Shown here piece by piece: positions 4,540-33,953 of a stretch of DNA of 49,633 nucleotides (positions are counted from its first letter, which is position 1; each line of letters opens with the position of its first letter). This DNA is from Bacillota bacterium (lineage in GTDB: Bacteria; Sysuimicrobiota; Sysuimicrobiia; Sysuimicrobiales; Segetimicrobiaceae), in the NCBI GenBank assembly GCA_021324975.1, contig JAJPIA010000035.1, positions 1 to 49,633 on the forward strand. Reading direction: 5' to 3'. The translations under genes were made by a program, and so were the position numbers. The notes under the pieces are model-generated. The model was not told the DNA's origin. It did no database searches and worked only from the letters and a program-made list of their open reading frames with translations.

Positions 4540-4632
4540 CGCTCCGGCAACCCGGCTGACTTGCCAGCTTTCGCTGGCCTGTCCCGTGGCTTTGCGTCCC
4601 CAGATCTCTCTGGGTTTGCCCCTACAGAAGCG
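4540..4632 (-). promoter_or_regulatory. GEMM-I cyclic di-GMP riboswitch aptamer
   Basis: The minus strand carries the conserved GEMM-I blocks in order: GGGCAAACC, a CCCAGA/TCTGGG stem capped by a GAGA tetraloop, GGGACGCAAAGCCACGGG, a second stem GCCAGC/GCTGGC capped by GAAA, then CAGCCGGGTTGCCGG. The outer P1 helix can form between CGCTTC (4632-4627) and GGAGCG (4545-4540). The GNRA loop and its receptor region are as in known class I c-di-GMP aptamers. The position corresponding to the ligand-contacting G20 of the Vibrio Vc2 aptamer appears to be G, which favours c-di-GMP over cGAMP. That alignment was done by eye. The aptamer precedes a terminator and the sigma/MerR/Roadblock/PilB operon. 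Confidence 0.93.
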
Positions 4633-7959: not shown

Positions 7960-9303
7960 TCAGGCGCGCTCCGCCGCCGCCGCGCGGACGGAGGCCAGCA
8001 CGCGGTCCGCCTCCGCGACCGCCCGGTCGATGCCCGCGGCGGCGCGGTCGATCAGGTCCGGCGTGATCGTGAGCGGCGGCGCGATGCGGATGACCTCGGG
8101 CTTGTTCAGCGTGTAGAACGTGATGACACCGCGGTGGCCGGCCTCGGCGGCGACCATGAGCGCGTAGTCGCTGTGCACGAACTCGACGCCCAGCAGGAGG
8201 CCGCGTCCCCGCACGTCGCGGATCACGGCCGGGTACCGGCGCCGGAGGTCGTGGAGCCGCCCGAGGAACCGCTCGCCCATCGCCGCGGCCCGCTCGGGGA
8301 GGCGCTCCCCCTCCAAGACCTCGAGGGTCGCGATGGCGGCGCGGCATGCCAGGGGATTGCCTCCGAACGTGGACGAGTGGATATACGGCTGGCGCCCGAA
8401 CGGACCCCACAGCGCCGGGCGGGCGATAAACGCGCCGATCGGGATGACGCCGCCGCCGAGCGCCTTGGCCACCGTGAGGATGTCCGGGACGACGTCCTCG
8501 TGATCGACGCCGAACCGCCGCCCGGTGCGGCCGAGGCCCGATTGAATCTCGTCGGCAATCAGCAACACCCCGCGACGGTCGCAGATCCCCCGCACCTCGC
8601 GCAGGTATCCCGGCGGCGGTACGATGACGCCCGCCTCGCCCTGGATCGGCTCCAGGATCACCGCGGCGGTGTCGGGCCCGATCGCGTCGTCCACGGCGCC
8701 GGCGTCGCCGAAGGGCACGTGCGTGAATCCCGGCACGAGCGGCGCGAACGGAGCCCGGTAGTACTCCCGGCCGGTGGCCGAGAGCGCCCCCAACGTCTTG
8801 CCGTGAAACGCCTCCTGCATCGCCACGAACCCGACGCGGCCGGTCACCAGGCGCGCGAGCTTGAGGGCCCCCTCCACCGCCTCCGCGCCGCTGTTGCAGA
8901 CAAAGGTGTAGCACAAGTCCCCCGGCGTGAACGCGGCGAGGCGCTCGGCCAGCTCCGCGAGCGCGGCGCTCGGCATCGTCCGCACCGACATCGGCATCCG
9001 GTCCAGTTGGTCGCGAACGGCGGCCAGGACCCGCGGGTGCCGGTGGCCCACGTTGAAGATCGCCGGGCCGCACGCGCAGTCCACGTACTCGCGCCCGTGC
9101 GCATCCCAGACCAGGCAGTCCAGCGCGGCCCACTCCACGGTCTCGGAACCGCCAAACTTGAACAGCCGCGCGAGCCCGGGATTGACGTAGCGCTGGTACC
9201 GGTCGATCGTCTCCGCCACGAGACGCTCACGCGCCGCCGGAGGGAGCAGCGGCACCGGGCACCGGCTCGCCGGAGCGGGCTCACGCGATTCCGGGATCAC
9301 CAT
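7960..9303 (-). CDS. Class III PLP aminotransferase, putrescine aminotransferase-like
   Basis: The 447-residue fold-type I enzyme carries the class III markers. These are NSGAEAVEGALKLAR (about 138-151), FHGKTLGALS (166-175), the PLP aspartate in LLIADEIQSGLGRTG (Asp251), and Lys280 in TVAKALGGG as the expected Schiff-base lysine. The N-terminal stretch YVNPGLARLFKFGGSETVEW is characteristic of the YgjG/PatA putrescine transaminase subgroup rather than ornithine or acetylornithine enzymes. Such enzymes convert putrescine and 2-oxoglutarate to 4-aminobutanal and glutamate. A PvlArgDC-SpeE-SpeB polyamine cluster lies 2.8 kb away, which supports a polyamine substrate. It overlaps the Nudix gene end by 23 bases. 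Confidence 0.85.
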   Translation of the reverse strand: MVIPESREPAPASRCPVPLLPPAARERLVAETIDRYQRYVNPGLARLFKFGGSETVEWAALDCLVWDAHGREYVDCACGPAIFNVGHRHPRVLAAVRDQLDRMPMSVRTMPSAALAELAERLAAFTPGDLCYTFVCNSGAEAVEGALKLARLVTGRVGFVAMQEAFHGKTLGALSATGREYYRAPFAPLVPGFTHVPFGDAGAVDDAIGPDTAAVILEPIQGEAGVIVPPPGYLREVRGICDRRGVLLIADEIQSGLGRTGRRFGVDHEDVVPDILTVAKALGGGVIPIGAFIARPALWGPFGRQPYIHSSTFGGNPLACRAAIATLEVLEGERLPERAAAMGERFLGRLHDLRRRYPAVIRDVRGRGLLLGVEFVHSDYALMVAAEAGHRGVITFYTLNKPEVIRIAPPLTITPDLIDRAAAGIDRAVAEADRVLASVRAAAAERA

Positions 9304-31453: not shown

Positions 31454-31924
31454 CTAGGGGGTGTCCTCTTCGACGATCTCCGAGGCATGCGTGATCCGCA
31501 CGCACCCCTTGAGCGTCTGCGCCACCGGGCACCCGCGCTCGAACACGGCCAGCGCACGCTCCGCTTCCTCGCGCTTGCCGCGGGGAATCACCAGGTGGTA
31601 CCTGACCCGGATCTCCGTGACACGCATCACGCGATCCGGCGCCTCGATCGTCCCTTCCGCTTCGGTCCAGAGTTTGTCGGGAAAGCTTGGGATCCCGCGC
31701 GCCTCCAGCGCGCCCGCGAGGGTGCCGGTAAGTCACCCCGCCGCTGCCCCGACCAGATGGTCGAGCGTGCTCGGTAGCTCCTCCTCCGGCTCCAGCCCGT
31801 AAAAGGCCTTGACCCCGGTGTTCACCCCGTAGCGGACGGGCTCAGGGAAGCCCCCGATGTAGGCGCGACGGTTCGGCCGCTTGTCTTGATACACGCGAAC
31901 CCTGGCGATATGGACCGCTGCCAT
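31454..31924 (-). CDS. OsmC-family protein, predicted selenoprotein (UGA at codon 64)
   Basis: Read with UGA (31735-31733) as selenocysteine, this is a continuous 156-residue OsmC-family protein ending at TAG (31456-31454). The part before the UGA includes RPNRRAYIGGFPEPVRYGVN and LPSTLDHLVGAAAG. The part after begins LTGTLAGALEARGIPSF and includes RVRYHLVIPRGKREEAERAL and FERGCPVAQTLKGCVRITHA. In family members the reactive Cys follows the AAGG-like turn exactly at residue 64, and the second Cys lies in the GCPVAQ motif. Both halves stay in one frame, so this is not a frameshift. A hairpin fitting a bacterial SECIS follows the UGA. OsmC proteins reduce organic peroxides through these residues. 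It is the last gene of the nitrile hydratase operon, 22 bases after the accessory gene. Read as a stop, the product would end after 63 residues. Confidence 0.85.
31697..31735 (-). promoter_or_regulatory. Candidate bacterial SECIS element downstream of in-frame UGA
   Basis: After the UGA at 31735-31733 there are 25 bases to an apical loop TGGAG (31707-31703). The loop is closed by six GC pairs, GCGCGC with GCGCGC. Bacterial SECIS elements have a short stem, a small loop with a G at its first or second position and a UGA-to-loop distance of roughly 16-37 bases. All three hold here. CCC and GGG can extend the stem across a bulge. Confidence 0.7.
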
Positions 31925-31946: not shown

Positions 31947-32354
31947 TCAGCGCGGGCGCGACTCCTCGGCCCCGGAAGGGTGTAGCTCCACCGGCTTCCC
32001 GTGCGGCGTACGGCGATAAGCCTCGGCCCACGCCTCCTTCCGCAACCGCAGGGCCTGCGGGTCGGCGAGCCCCTTGGCGGCGACGAGCCGTTCCAGCACC
32101 GCGAGCCAGTGCCGATAGTAGTGCGATCCGTCATCCGGCTCACCACGACCGGTGGCCGTCCGGAGCTCATCCCCGAGCGCCGCCGACCACTCGGTCCACG
32201 AAAAGTAGCCACGATCGGCGAGCGTCACGGCCAACGCGAACGCTTGAGCCTCCCACGGCTCGGCGAACGTCCGCTCGTCCGTGTCCCGGGGGAGACGAGG
32301 CGGTGCGGGATGCCCGGCCTCGGACGGCCGATCAGGCCGCTTCAAGGTACTCAT
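31947..32354 (-). CDS. Nitrile hydratase accessory (activator) protein
   Basis: The 135-residue product from ATG at 32354 matches the nitrile hydratase accessory family. That family resembles the N-terminal half of the beta subunit: FAEPWEAQAFALAVTLADRG, YFSWTEWSAALGDELR and GSHYYRHWLAVLERLVAAKG. Such proteins help insert cobalt and assemble the alpha subunit. The start lies inside the end of the beta gene (23-base overlap), so translation is coupled. The alternative reading is a split beta subunit, as in some three-subunit hydratases. Confidence 0.88.
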   Translation of the reverse strand: MSTLKRPDRPSEAGHPAPPRLPRDTDERTFAEPWEAQAFALAVTLADRGYFSWTEWSAALGDELRTATGRGEPDDGSHYYRHWLAVLERLVAAKGLADPQALRLRKEAWAEAYRRTPHGKPVELHPSGAEESRPR

Positions 32355-32991
32355 CCCACAGATCGAGGTAGACGGCGTCGCGCGCGGAGGCCTGGTCTCC
32401 CCACAGCTCGCGCGCGGCAAAGCGGACGGAGTACACGTGCTGCGGGCGCTCCCCCGCAAACAGCGCATTGGAATCGGGAAATACGTAGATCCCCTGATCG
32501 CGCTCCACCGTACCGACCCTGCCGCGGACATAGCGCGGCAGGCGTGTATGCCCCTGGGGATGCATCATGCGGGCACGCACGCGGTCATGGACGCGAAAGC
32601 GCGGGGCGACCGGCAGATCGCGGCTCGCAGCCGATCCCGTTCGGGTCATCGACGACACGCGCGCAGCCGTGAGCGGCGGCTCAGCCTTGGCCGTGCCCGG
32701 CGCTGGTCTCCCCGCGGCCACCTCCTCCCGCGCGACCAGACCGGTCTTGACCATGAGCTCCACGAGCCGCGCGAACCATCGCTCGTAGTAGCTCATGCAC
32801 AGGTACTCGGCCGGGGGAATGAGCTCGATCTCGTAGCGGCCCGCGTCGATGTTCCACTTGCGCCACGCCCGCATGGCGAGGTTCAGCGCGAAGACCCGTC
32901 CCTCCCACGGCTCATGAAACACGGGCTCATCGCGCTCATACCGGATCCGACCCATGCCGTGCAAACCGCCCATGTCGTGCACGCCGTTCAT
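32332..32991 (-). CDS. nthB: Nitrile hydratase subunit beta
   Basis: The 219-residue protein opens with [20 protein letters not shown], the hallmark of the beta subunit. [15 protein letters not shown] and [20 protein letters not shown] follow. The C-terminal SH3-like barrel holds [20 protein letters not shown] and [14 protein letters not shown]. It forms the substrate-access channel over the metal site of the alpha subunit. The ATG overlaps the alpha gene by four bases. The length matches cobalt-type enzymes. Confidence 0.96.
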
Positions 32992-33662
32992 GATTGCACG
33001 GCCGCCGGGGGGATCGTCACTGTCGCGACGCCGACCATGGCGTCACGCGTGACGAGCGCCGCGAGCTCGTCCTCGCTCAGGTGCTCGCTGTGTGCGGGCC
33101 GCTCAGGCAGCACGAGATAGCGTAGCTCGGCCGTGCTGTCCCACACGCGCACTTCCACATTGTCTGCGAGCTCGAGTCCGAACTCGCGGAGCACCCCGCG
33201 AGGATCGATCACCGCCCGCGAGCGGTAGGCCGCCGATTTGTACCACACGGGCGGCAGGCCCAGCACCGACCACGGGTAGCAGGAGCACAAGGTGCACACG
33301 ATGAGATTGTGGACGGCCGGCGTGTTCTCCACCACGCGCATGTGCTCGCCCTGGGTGCCGCCGTATCCAAGTTCCGCGATTGCCGCCGTGCCGTCTGTGA
33401 GGAGGCGCTTCTTGTACGCGGAGTCTACCCACGCCCGCGCGACAACGCGGGCGCCGTTGCGGGGTCCGATCTTGTGCTCGTACATGTCCACCAGGGCATC
33501 CAGCCCGGCCGGATCCACGAGCCCTTTGTCGACCAACAGCGACTCGAGGGCTTTCACCCGGAGGGCGAGGTCCGAGGGCACCGCCTGATGCTCGTGGCCG
33601 CCGTGGTGGTCGTGCGCCCCGTGGTGCTCAGCGTGGTGATGAGCCGGCTGATGGTCATTCAT
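32988..33662 (-). CDS. nthA: Nitrile hydratase subunit alpha, cobalt type, with His-rich N-terminus
   Basis: The 224-residue product from ATG at 33662, with GGAG eight bases upstream, carries the metal-binding site [10 protein letters not shown] (Cys123, Cys126, Cys128). The Thr at the second position indicates a low-spin cobalt enzyme. Iron types have Ser there. Two of these cysteines are normally oxidised to sulfinic and sulfenic acid. The body includes [20 protein letters not shown] and [13 protein letters not shown]. Eleven of the first 26 residues are His, an extension that could bind or buffer cobalt. The enzyme hydrates nitriles to amides. No amidase gene is present in the window. The gene heads an alpha-beta-accessory-OsmC operon. 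Confidence 0.96.
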
Positions 33663-33702
33663 GCGAACGCTCCGACGCTCGTGACGCATATCGACGGATG
33701 AC

Positions 33703-33953
33703 ATGATCTCGACCGAGCTGGCGGCCCTGCGGTATCGTTTGGCAGTACCCGAGCCCTCTCCTGCTCGCGCAGCGCCCGGGTTCGCGCGGATCAGGTTGCA
33801 GCAACTCAATCGCGGGCCTCTGCCCAAACCTCTGCGGCTTCGCGGCGATGTCGTGGACCTGCTGCTTGAAGAACGACAAAGCTACCGGTGATCGCCTACG
33901 TCGATGCTTCGGTCTTGCTGAGAGTAGCCCTCGGTCAGCCGAACCTCCTCCTG
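33703..33953 (+). pseudogene. Relic of a VapBC-type toxin-antitoxin pair
   Basis: A 62-codon frame (33703-33891) ends in an antitoxin-like tail, [20 protein letters not shown]. Its stop overlaps the GTG at 33888. That GTG begins VIAYVDASVLLRVALGQPNL, the N-terminus of a PIN-domain VapC with its first catalytic Asp. After about 21 codons the similarity stops where the convergent SRPBCC gene ends at 33958. The rest of the about 130-residue toxin is absent. The antitoxin's DNA-binding part is also not recognisable. The pair is therefore most likely a truncated remnant. Confidence 0.6.

Follow-up and report, generated by a model that had tools for sequence, protein, structure and literature searches.

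The DNA analyzed here (the window, meaning the whole stretch of 49,633 nucleotides) carries on its reverse strand an osmC-like gene whose ATG at 31924 opens a frame of 156 codons that runs to 31457, is closed by a TAG and contains a single TGA, at codon 64 (Table 1). An initial annotation made from the letters of the window had placed a UGA at codon 64 inside a 156-residue OsmC frame ending at a TAG, and its coordinates were borne out by translation. It had also expected gene calling to truncate the product at 63 residues, and a standard caller does end at codon 63. On the same strand, the gene for a nitrile hydratase accessory protein lies 22 bp upstream of the OsmC start, and genes for the beta and alpha subunits are found beyond it. 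Elsewhere in the window we noted a c-di-GMP-I riboswitch at 4543-4630 on the reverse strand (72 bits). A codon-usage scan of the window for other genes with an in-frame UGA returned nothing convincing; its top candidate, at 7962, appeared by eye to be an ordinary gene end before the start of an alanyl-tRNA synthetase gene.

Table 1. Features of the osmC-like locus (window coordinates) and of the selenocysteine machinery in the same genome (contig coordinates)
Feature	Location	Strand	Basis or remark
osmC-like selenoprotein gene	31454..31924	-	156 codons plus TAG; translation, Pfam OsmC, orthologues
In-frame UGA, codon 64, predicted to be read as selenocysteine	31733..31735	-	Aligned to OsmC reactive Cys
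Predicted SECIS stem-loop	31697..31713	-	6-bp stem, 31713-31708 with 31702-31697; loop UGGAG, 31707-31703
Cys132 codon, second (putatively resolving) cysteine, GCPVAQ	31529..31531	-	Invariant; aligns to second Cys of 1ukk
TAG terminator of osmC-like gene	31454..31456	-	Translation
Nitrile hydratase accessory protein	31947..32396	-	TIGR03889, 8.1e-25; own start uncertain
Nitrile hydratase beta subunit	32332..32991	-	TIGR03888, 4.2e-72
Nitrile hydratase alpha subunit	32988..33743	-	TIGR01323, 7.2e-92; start uncertain
tRNA-Sec, anticodon UCA	C119:52283-52373		Same genome as window gene
selA	C119:33248-34633		535 bits; same genome as window gene
selB	C119:34736-36604		336 bits; same genome as window gene
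selD	C97:34566-35486 (L133, G000)		380 bits; in-frame UGA at active site (ACAGUASKLSP)

The product is an OsmC protein across the UGA, as the initial annotation had recognized. Residues 50-146 match the Pfam OsmC model (PF02566; E = 7.4e-14, 52.4 bits versus a gathering score of 27.5), and the same model was matched in 32/32 members of the subfamily. Using phmmer against solved structures, we recovered the Thermus OsmC protein (1ukk), and in this alignment residue 64 falls on the reactive cysteine (AGCFSMAL) and Cys132 on the second one (GCPVSRAL), in agreement with the earlier claims that the UGA occupies the reactive position of the family and that the second cysteine is intact. The AlphaFold2 model, built from 32 aligned sequences, had a pLDDT of 95.9 and a pTM of 0.88, and the best solved matches to it in Foldseek were the OsmC proteins 2onf, 1qwi and 1ukk (query TM of 0.69-0.78). 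Residues invariant among 32 diverse members include Thr53-Leu54-Asp55, Sec64, Gly67 and Cys132. Profile comparison with cysteine-containing OsmC proteins gave an alignment from residue 56 on, with the N-terminal half, which in OsmC holds the TRFE and PEEL motifs, left unaligned, and the protein scored far below the cut-offs of the NCBIfam OsmC and Ohr models. The invariant Asp55 lies near the site of the OsmC glutamate and Arg19 is conserved; the two could be stand-ins for the missing Glu/Arg pair.

How far the gene and its UGA are shared was assessed with searches in which stop codons were read through and cysteine forms were scored equally. Within the order, a protein search detected the gene in 21/43 genomes at 53-95% identity to the window copy, with TGA at the same codon in all 21 orthologues. 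Wider searches used a profile made from alignment A1 and found the gene in 58/95 genomes from the phylum of a Methylomirabilota MAG, in 37 genomes of a draw of 400 from the phylum of an Anaerolineales MAG and in 34/386 genomes of a broad domain sample that included the window's order, nearly always with one TGA per gene. Carriers among public contigs comprised Bacillota, Acidobacteria, Methylomirabilota and Anaerolineales MAGs. Across the 89 distinct members that were long enough for the tree, drawn from several phyla, the codon for residue 64 was UGA in 87, Cys in one (L115, GCMTG) and Trp in one (L114, TGG at the codon), and the UGA genes formed one group with two losses. The Cys homologue supplies the Sec/Cys pair within the clade that the initial annotation had proposed to look for at this residue. 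Retention of the codon in all 21 orthologues of the order and in 87 of the 89 members is far more than chance would give. Protein conservation carries on past the UGA. One Methylomirabilis copy (L051/L059, L051:8160-8210) is broken within the UGA codon itself, with TG kept and followed by unrelated sequence.

The genome also holds selA, selB, selC and selD, all four of the genes for which a search had been suggested (Table 1). The active-site region of selD also contains an in-frame UGA, so that this gene is likely to encode a selenoprotein itself. Of the 21 carriers in the order, 18 had a SelB match above the cut-off; the remaining three were incomplete or, in the case of G018, had a selB gene interrupted by the end of its contig. 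The osmC-like gene was also absent from nearly complete relatives that had no selB match above the cut-off and no strong tRNA-Sec match (for example, G014, G025 and G031). One genome, G008, apparently has two selB/tRNA-Sec pairs, on C34 and C11, which could represent a second selenocysteine system or contamination; its G008:C34:5051-7033 was the best selB match found (452 bits).

The initial annotation had described a six-pair hairpin with the loop TGGAG 25 bases past the UGA, and this element proved to be both conserved and covarying. In the window, the stem begins 20 bases and the loop 25 nt past the UGA. The main type of segment was represented by 55 distinct sequences, in which synonymous variation collapses at codons +7 to +12, which correspond exactly to stem and loop: wobble entropy over these six codons was 0.46, 0.66, 0.00, 0.92, 0.00 and 0.38, the value of 0.92 coming from a Glu codon of the loop, which has two synonymous forms, compared with mostly about 1.3-2.0 bits in the flanks (up to +6 and from +14) at codons with three or more choices. 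Codon choice inside the element is nearly frozen, with CTG in 55/55 and GCG in 46/46 cases. The helix was 97% paired over 28 distinct rows; the stem pair 27-35 occurs as G-C, C-G, A-U or G-U, with five changes on the tree, and neither the covariation score nor the count of double-change cells was reached by any of 500 shuffles. Folding energy of the 39 nt past the UGA was weakly low relative to synonymous recodings (mean z of -1.46; 17/55 below p = 0.05), probably because much of the stem is dictated by the encoded amino acids (A-L-E-A-R), and we therefore used wobble entropy and pair covariation instead. When the window's 45 bases past the UGA were folded alone, the minimum-energy fold was a competing structure. 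The case for the window hairpin is comparative, and by the pattern of codon constraint and covariation the predicted SECIS element is real.

A second group of segments (n = 23) has the hairpin in a different register; these came almost entirely from the search of the Methylomirabilota phylum, with L048 (Acidobacteria) and G040 (the window's order) in addition. In 20 of the 23, at least six of seven positions pair in a shifted hairpin that joins positions 14-20 with 27-33 around a loop at 21-26. This structure is built with rare CTA leucine codons (in L061-L084, L048 and L130, mostly from the Methylomirabilota phylum search), which make up 29/46 of the Leu codons at +5 and +9 compared to 2/136 elsewhere in the same genes. 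Two segments of the group, L057 and L062, have no shifted hairpin and keep the ordinary one. It looks as though the SECIS element has moved several bases beneath a conserved protein sequence.

A UGA at this position might instead be a sequencing error for TGC or TGT, or the gene might be decaying and have acquired a nonsense mutation. The assembly to which the window contig belongs is fragmented, the Methylomirabilis copy is broken at this very codon and the Trp homologue has TGG there, all of which would fit such an origin; however, the same UGA recurs in 87 distinct genes that come from independent assemblies, with conservation past it, and because the codon is conserved we consider error or decay refuted, with a negligible residual probability. 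Hardly more credence can be given to a genome-wide reassignment of UGA, or to its reading as another amino acid without a SECIS element. The frame would be open under such a code, which is all that speaks for it, but the first stop after the matched region is itself UGA in 39/89 genes, so UGA has not simply been reassigned, and both the codon-level constraint on the hairpin and the full selenocysteine system of the genome argue in the same direction. In many genes of the clade, UGA is both the selenocysteine codon and the stop. From the conserved codon, the hairpin and the machinery, each of which the sequence comparisons show, we infer selenocysteine decoding at codon 64 with near certainty.

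OsmC-like selenoproteins as such are not new. They were first described from the Sargasso Sea in 2005 with the motif UxxT (PMC1088965), in a survey that counted more Cys homologues than Sec forms (Table 2 of PMC1088965), and were met again in the GOS data in 2008 (PMC2398784). Reviews published in 2022 and 2026 list them as a single family (PMC9312934, PMC13188914). The NCBIfam model NF041052 (OsmC_like_Se) presumably describes this Sargasso family, given the common UxxT motif. Its members resemble the window protein in having an OsmC domain, selenocysteine in place of the reactive cysteine and a bacterial SECIS hairpin past the UGA, but they differ in motif: they carry UxxT or, in some cases, UxxV (G-F-U-L-L-T-Q or G-F-U-E-E-V-Q), compared to U-L-T-G-T (UxxG) in the window protein and U-[LM]-[TY]-G-T in most members of its subfamily. 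Membership of the window protein in NF041052 was rejected at 14.5 bits versus a curated cut-off of 95. When a tree was built with the Sec residue masked, the window subfamily and NF041052 formed separate clades, the latter flanked by Cys proteins. A single Sec clade, and with it a single origin for both subfamilies, was rejected by the AU test (p-AU = 8e-5, with long branches involved). The NF041052 family is also present in the window's phylum in UxxT and UxxV variants (L168-L179, for example, L175-L178), and both subfamilies occur together in G003, G008, G011 and G026.

OsmC peroxidases (E. coli 1qwi/1nye and Thermus 1ukk) have the fold (TM of about 0.7) and both redox positions in common with the window protein, which differs from them in having Sec for the first cysteine and a different N-terminal half and in scoring 32.6 bits against TIGR03562 (cut-off of 85.8). 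The Ohr and YhfA groups carry a two-Cys redox pair on the same fold where the window protein has Sec/Cys; the Ohr model was unmatched, and PRK10738 (OsmC family protein) gave 12 bits versus a cut-off of 138. No NCBIfam model was matched over its cut-off by the window subfamily, and we found no paper on it in the openly accessible literature. Because the NF041052 score is below the cut-off and the AU test rejects one common Sec clade, sequence comparison identifies the window protein as a member of a second Sec-OsmC subfamily, distinct and near-obligately Sec. The initial annotation had called OsmC-like selenoproteins known but rare; this description needs changing, as the window gene lies outside the catalogued family, in a Sec subfamily of its own that is far more widespread.

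Overall, we consider it very likely that the gene encodes an OsmC-fold selenoprotein with UGA decoded through the hairpin and SelB, in a Sec-OsmC subfamily apart from the UxxT proteins; its chemistry is probably of the OsmC/Ohr type. When the ribosome reaches codon 64, the hairpin just past the UGA would recruit SelB with Sec-tRNA(UCA), placing selenocysteine where OsmC/Ohr proteins carry their peroxidatic cysteine. OsmC/Ohr enzymes use reactive thiols to reduce organic hydroperoxides, form an intramolecular disulfide and have lipoylated proteins as reductant (PMC8945050). By analogy with that family, the Sec64 selenolate would reduce an organic hydroperoxide, Cys132 would resolve the resulting selenenic acid to give a selenenylsulfide, which would in turn be reduced by a dihydrolipoyl protein or some other thiol system. 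Such a lipoyl- or thiol-dependent peroxidase seems the probable function, and it is less certain than Sec insertion because the assisting Arg/Glu residues could not be confidently located.

The location of the gene next to a nitrile hydratase operon might suggest a dedicated partner of that enzyme, for example one handling oxidized active-site cysteines. Close spacing on one strand, repeated in G002, favors such a role, but adjacency is kept in G000 and G002 only, which belong to one genus; none of the other orthologous loci examined had a nitrile hydratase gene nearby, and flanking genes differ between genera. With linkage limited to two genomes and variable flanks, the Sec-OsmC protein is not part of nitrile hydratase, and a dedicated partnership is very improbable. 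Neither a conserved operon partner (16 neighborhoods) nor a conserved set of genes hinting at a substrate was seen in the neighborhoods examined. By inspection, enoyl-CoA-hydratase-like genes recur near the Sec-OsmC gene in sister genomes, and in G001 a gene resembling AhpC/TSA-type peroxiredoxins by eye lies just upstream of it (L116:8965-9768). A more serious contender, though still the less likely one, is a Sec protein without OsmC/Ohr hydroperoxidase function, similar to YhfA in lacking Arg/Glu and acting on another substrate, such as sulfur species or a protein disulfide. Homology to Cys-OsmC that is clear only from residue 56, with the TRFE/PEEL half unaligned, and the low NCBIfam OsmC and Ohr scores point this way, as does the YhfA group, whose proteins have both cysteines, lack the catalytic Arg/Glu and are of unknown role (PMC8945050). 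Against it, the protein retains both redox positions, and E. coli OsmC, an Ohr/OsmC peroxidase, is among its closest structural matches. More speculatively, the subfamily may be an OsmC-fold selenoenzyme that arose independently and is nearly obligate, present in several phyla and with non-hydroperoxidase chemistry, in which Cys is unable to replace Sec as the reaction needs selenium; we regard this as rather doubtful and favor the OsmC/Ohr-type peroxidase.

Since standard calling ends at codon 63 and NCBIfam has no model that the subfamily matches at cut-off, annotations of uncultured bacteria probably get this widespread redox protein wrong. That one clade has its hairpin in a shifted position suggests that a SECIS element can move within a conserved coding sequence. 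With 87 Sec, one Cys and one Trp form, the Sec:Cys ratio of the clade is opposite to that of the 2005 survey, and the subfamily provides a clear-cut system in which to ask why certain lineages are unable to dispense with selenium.
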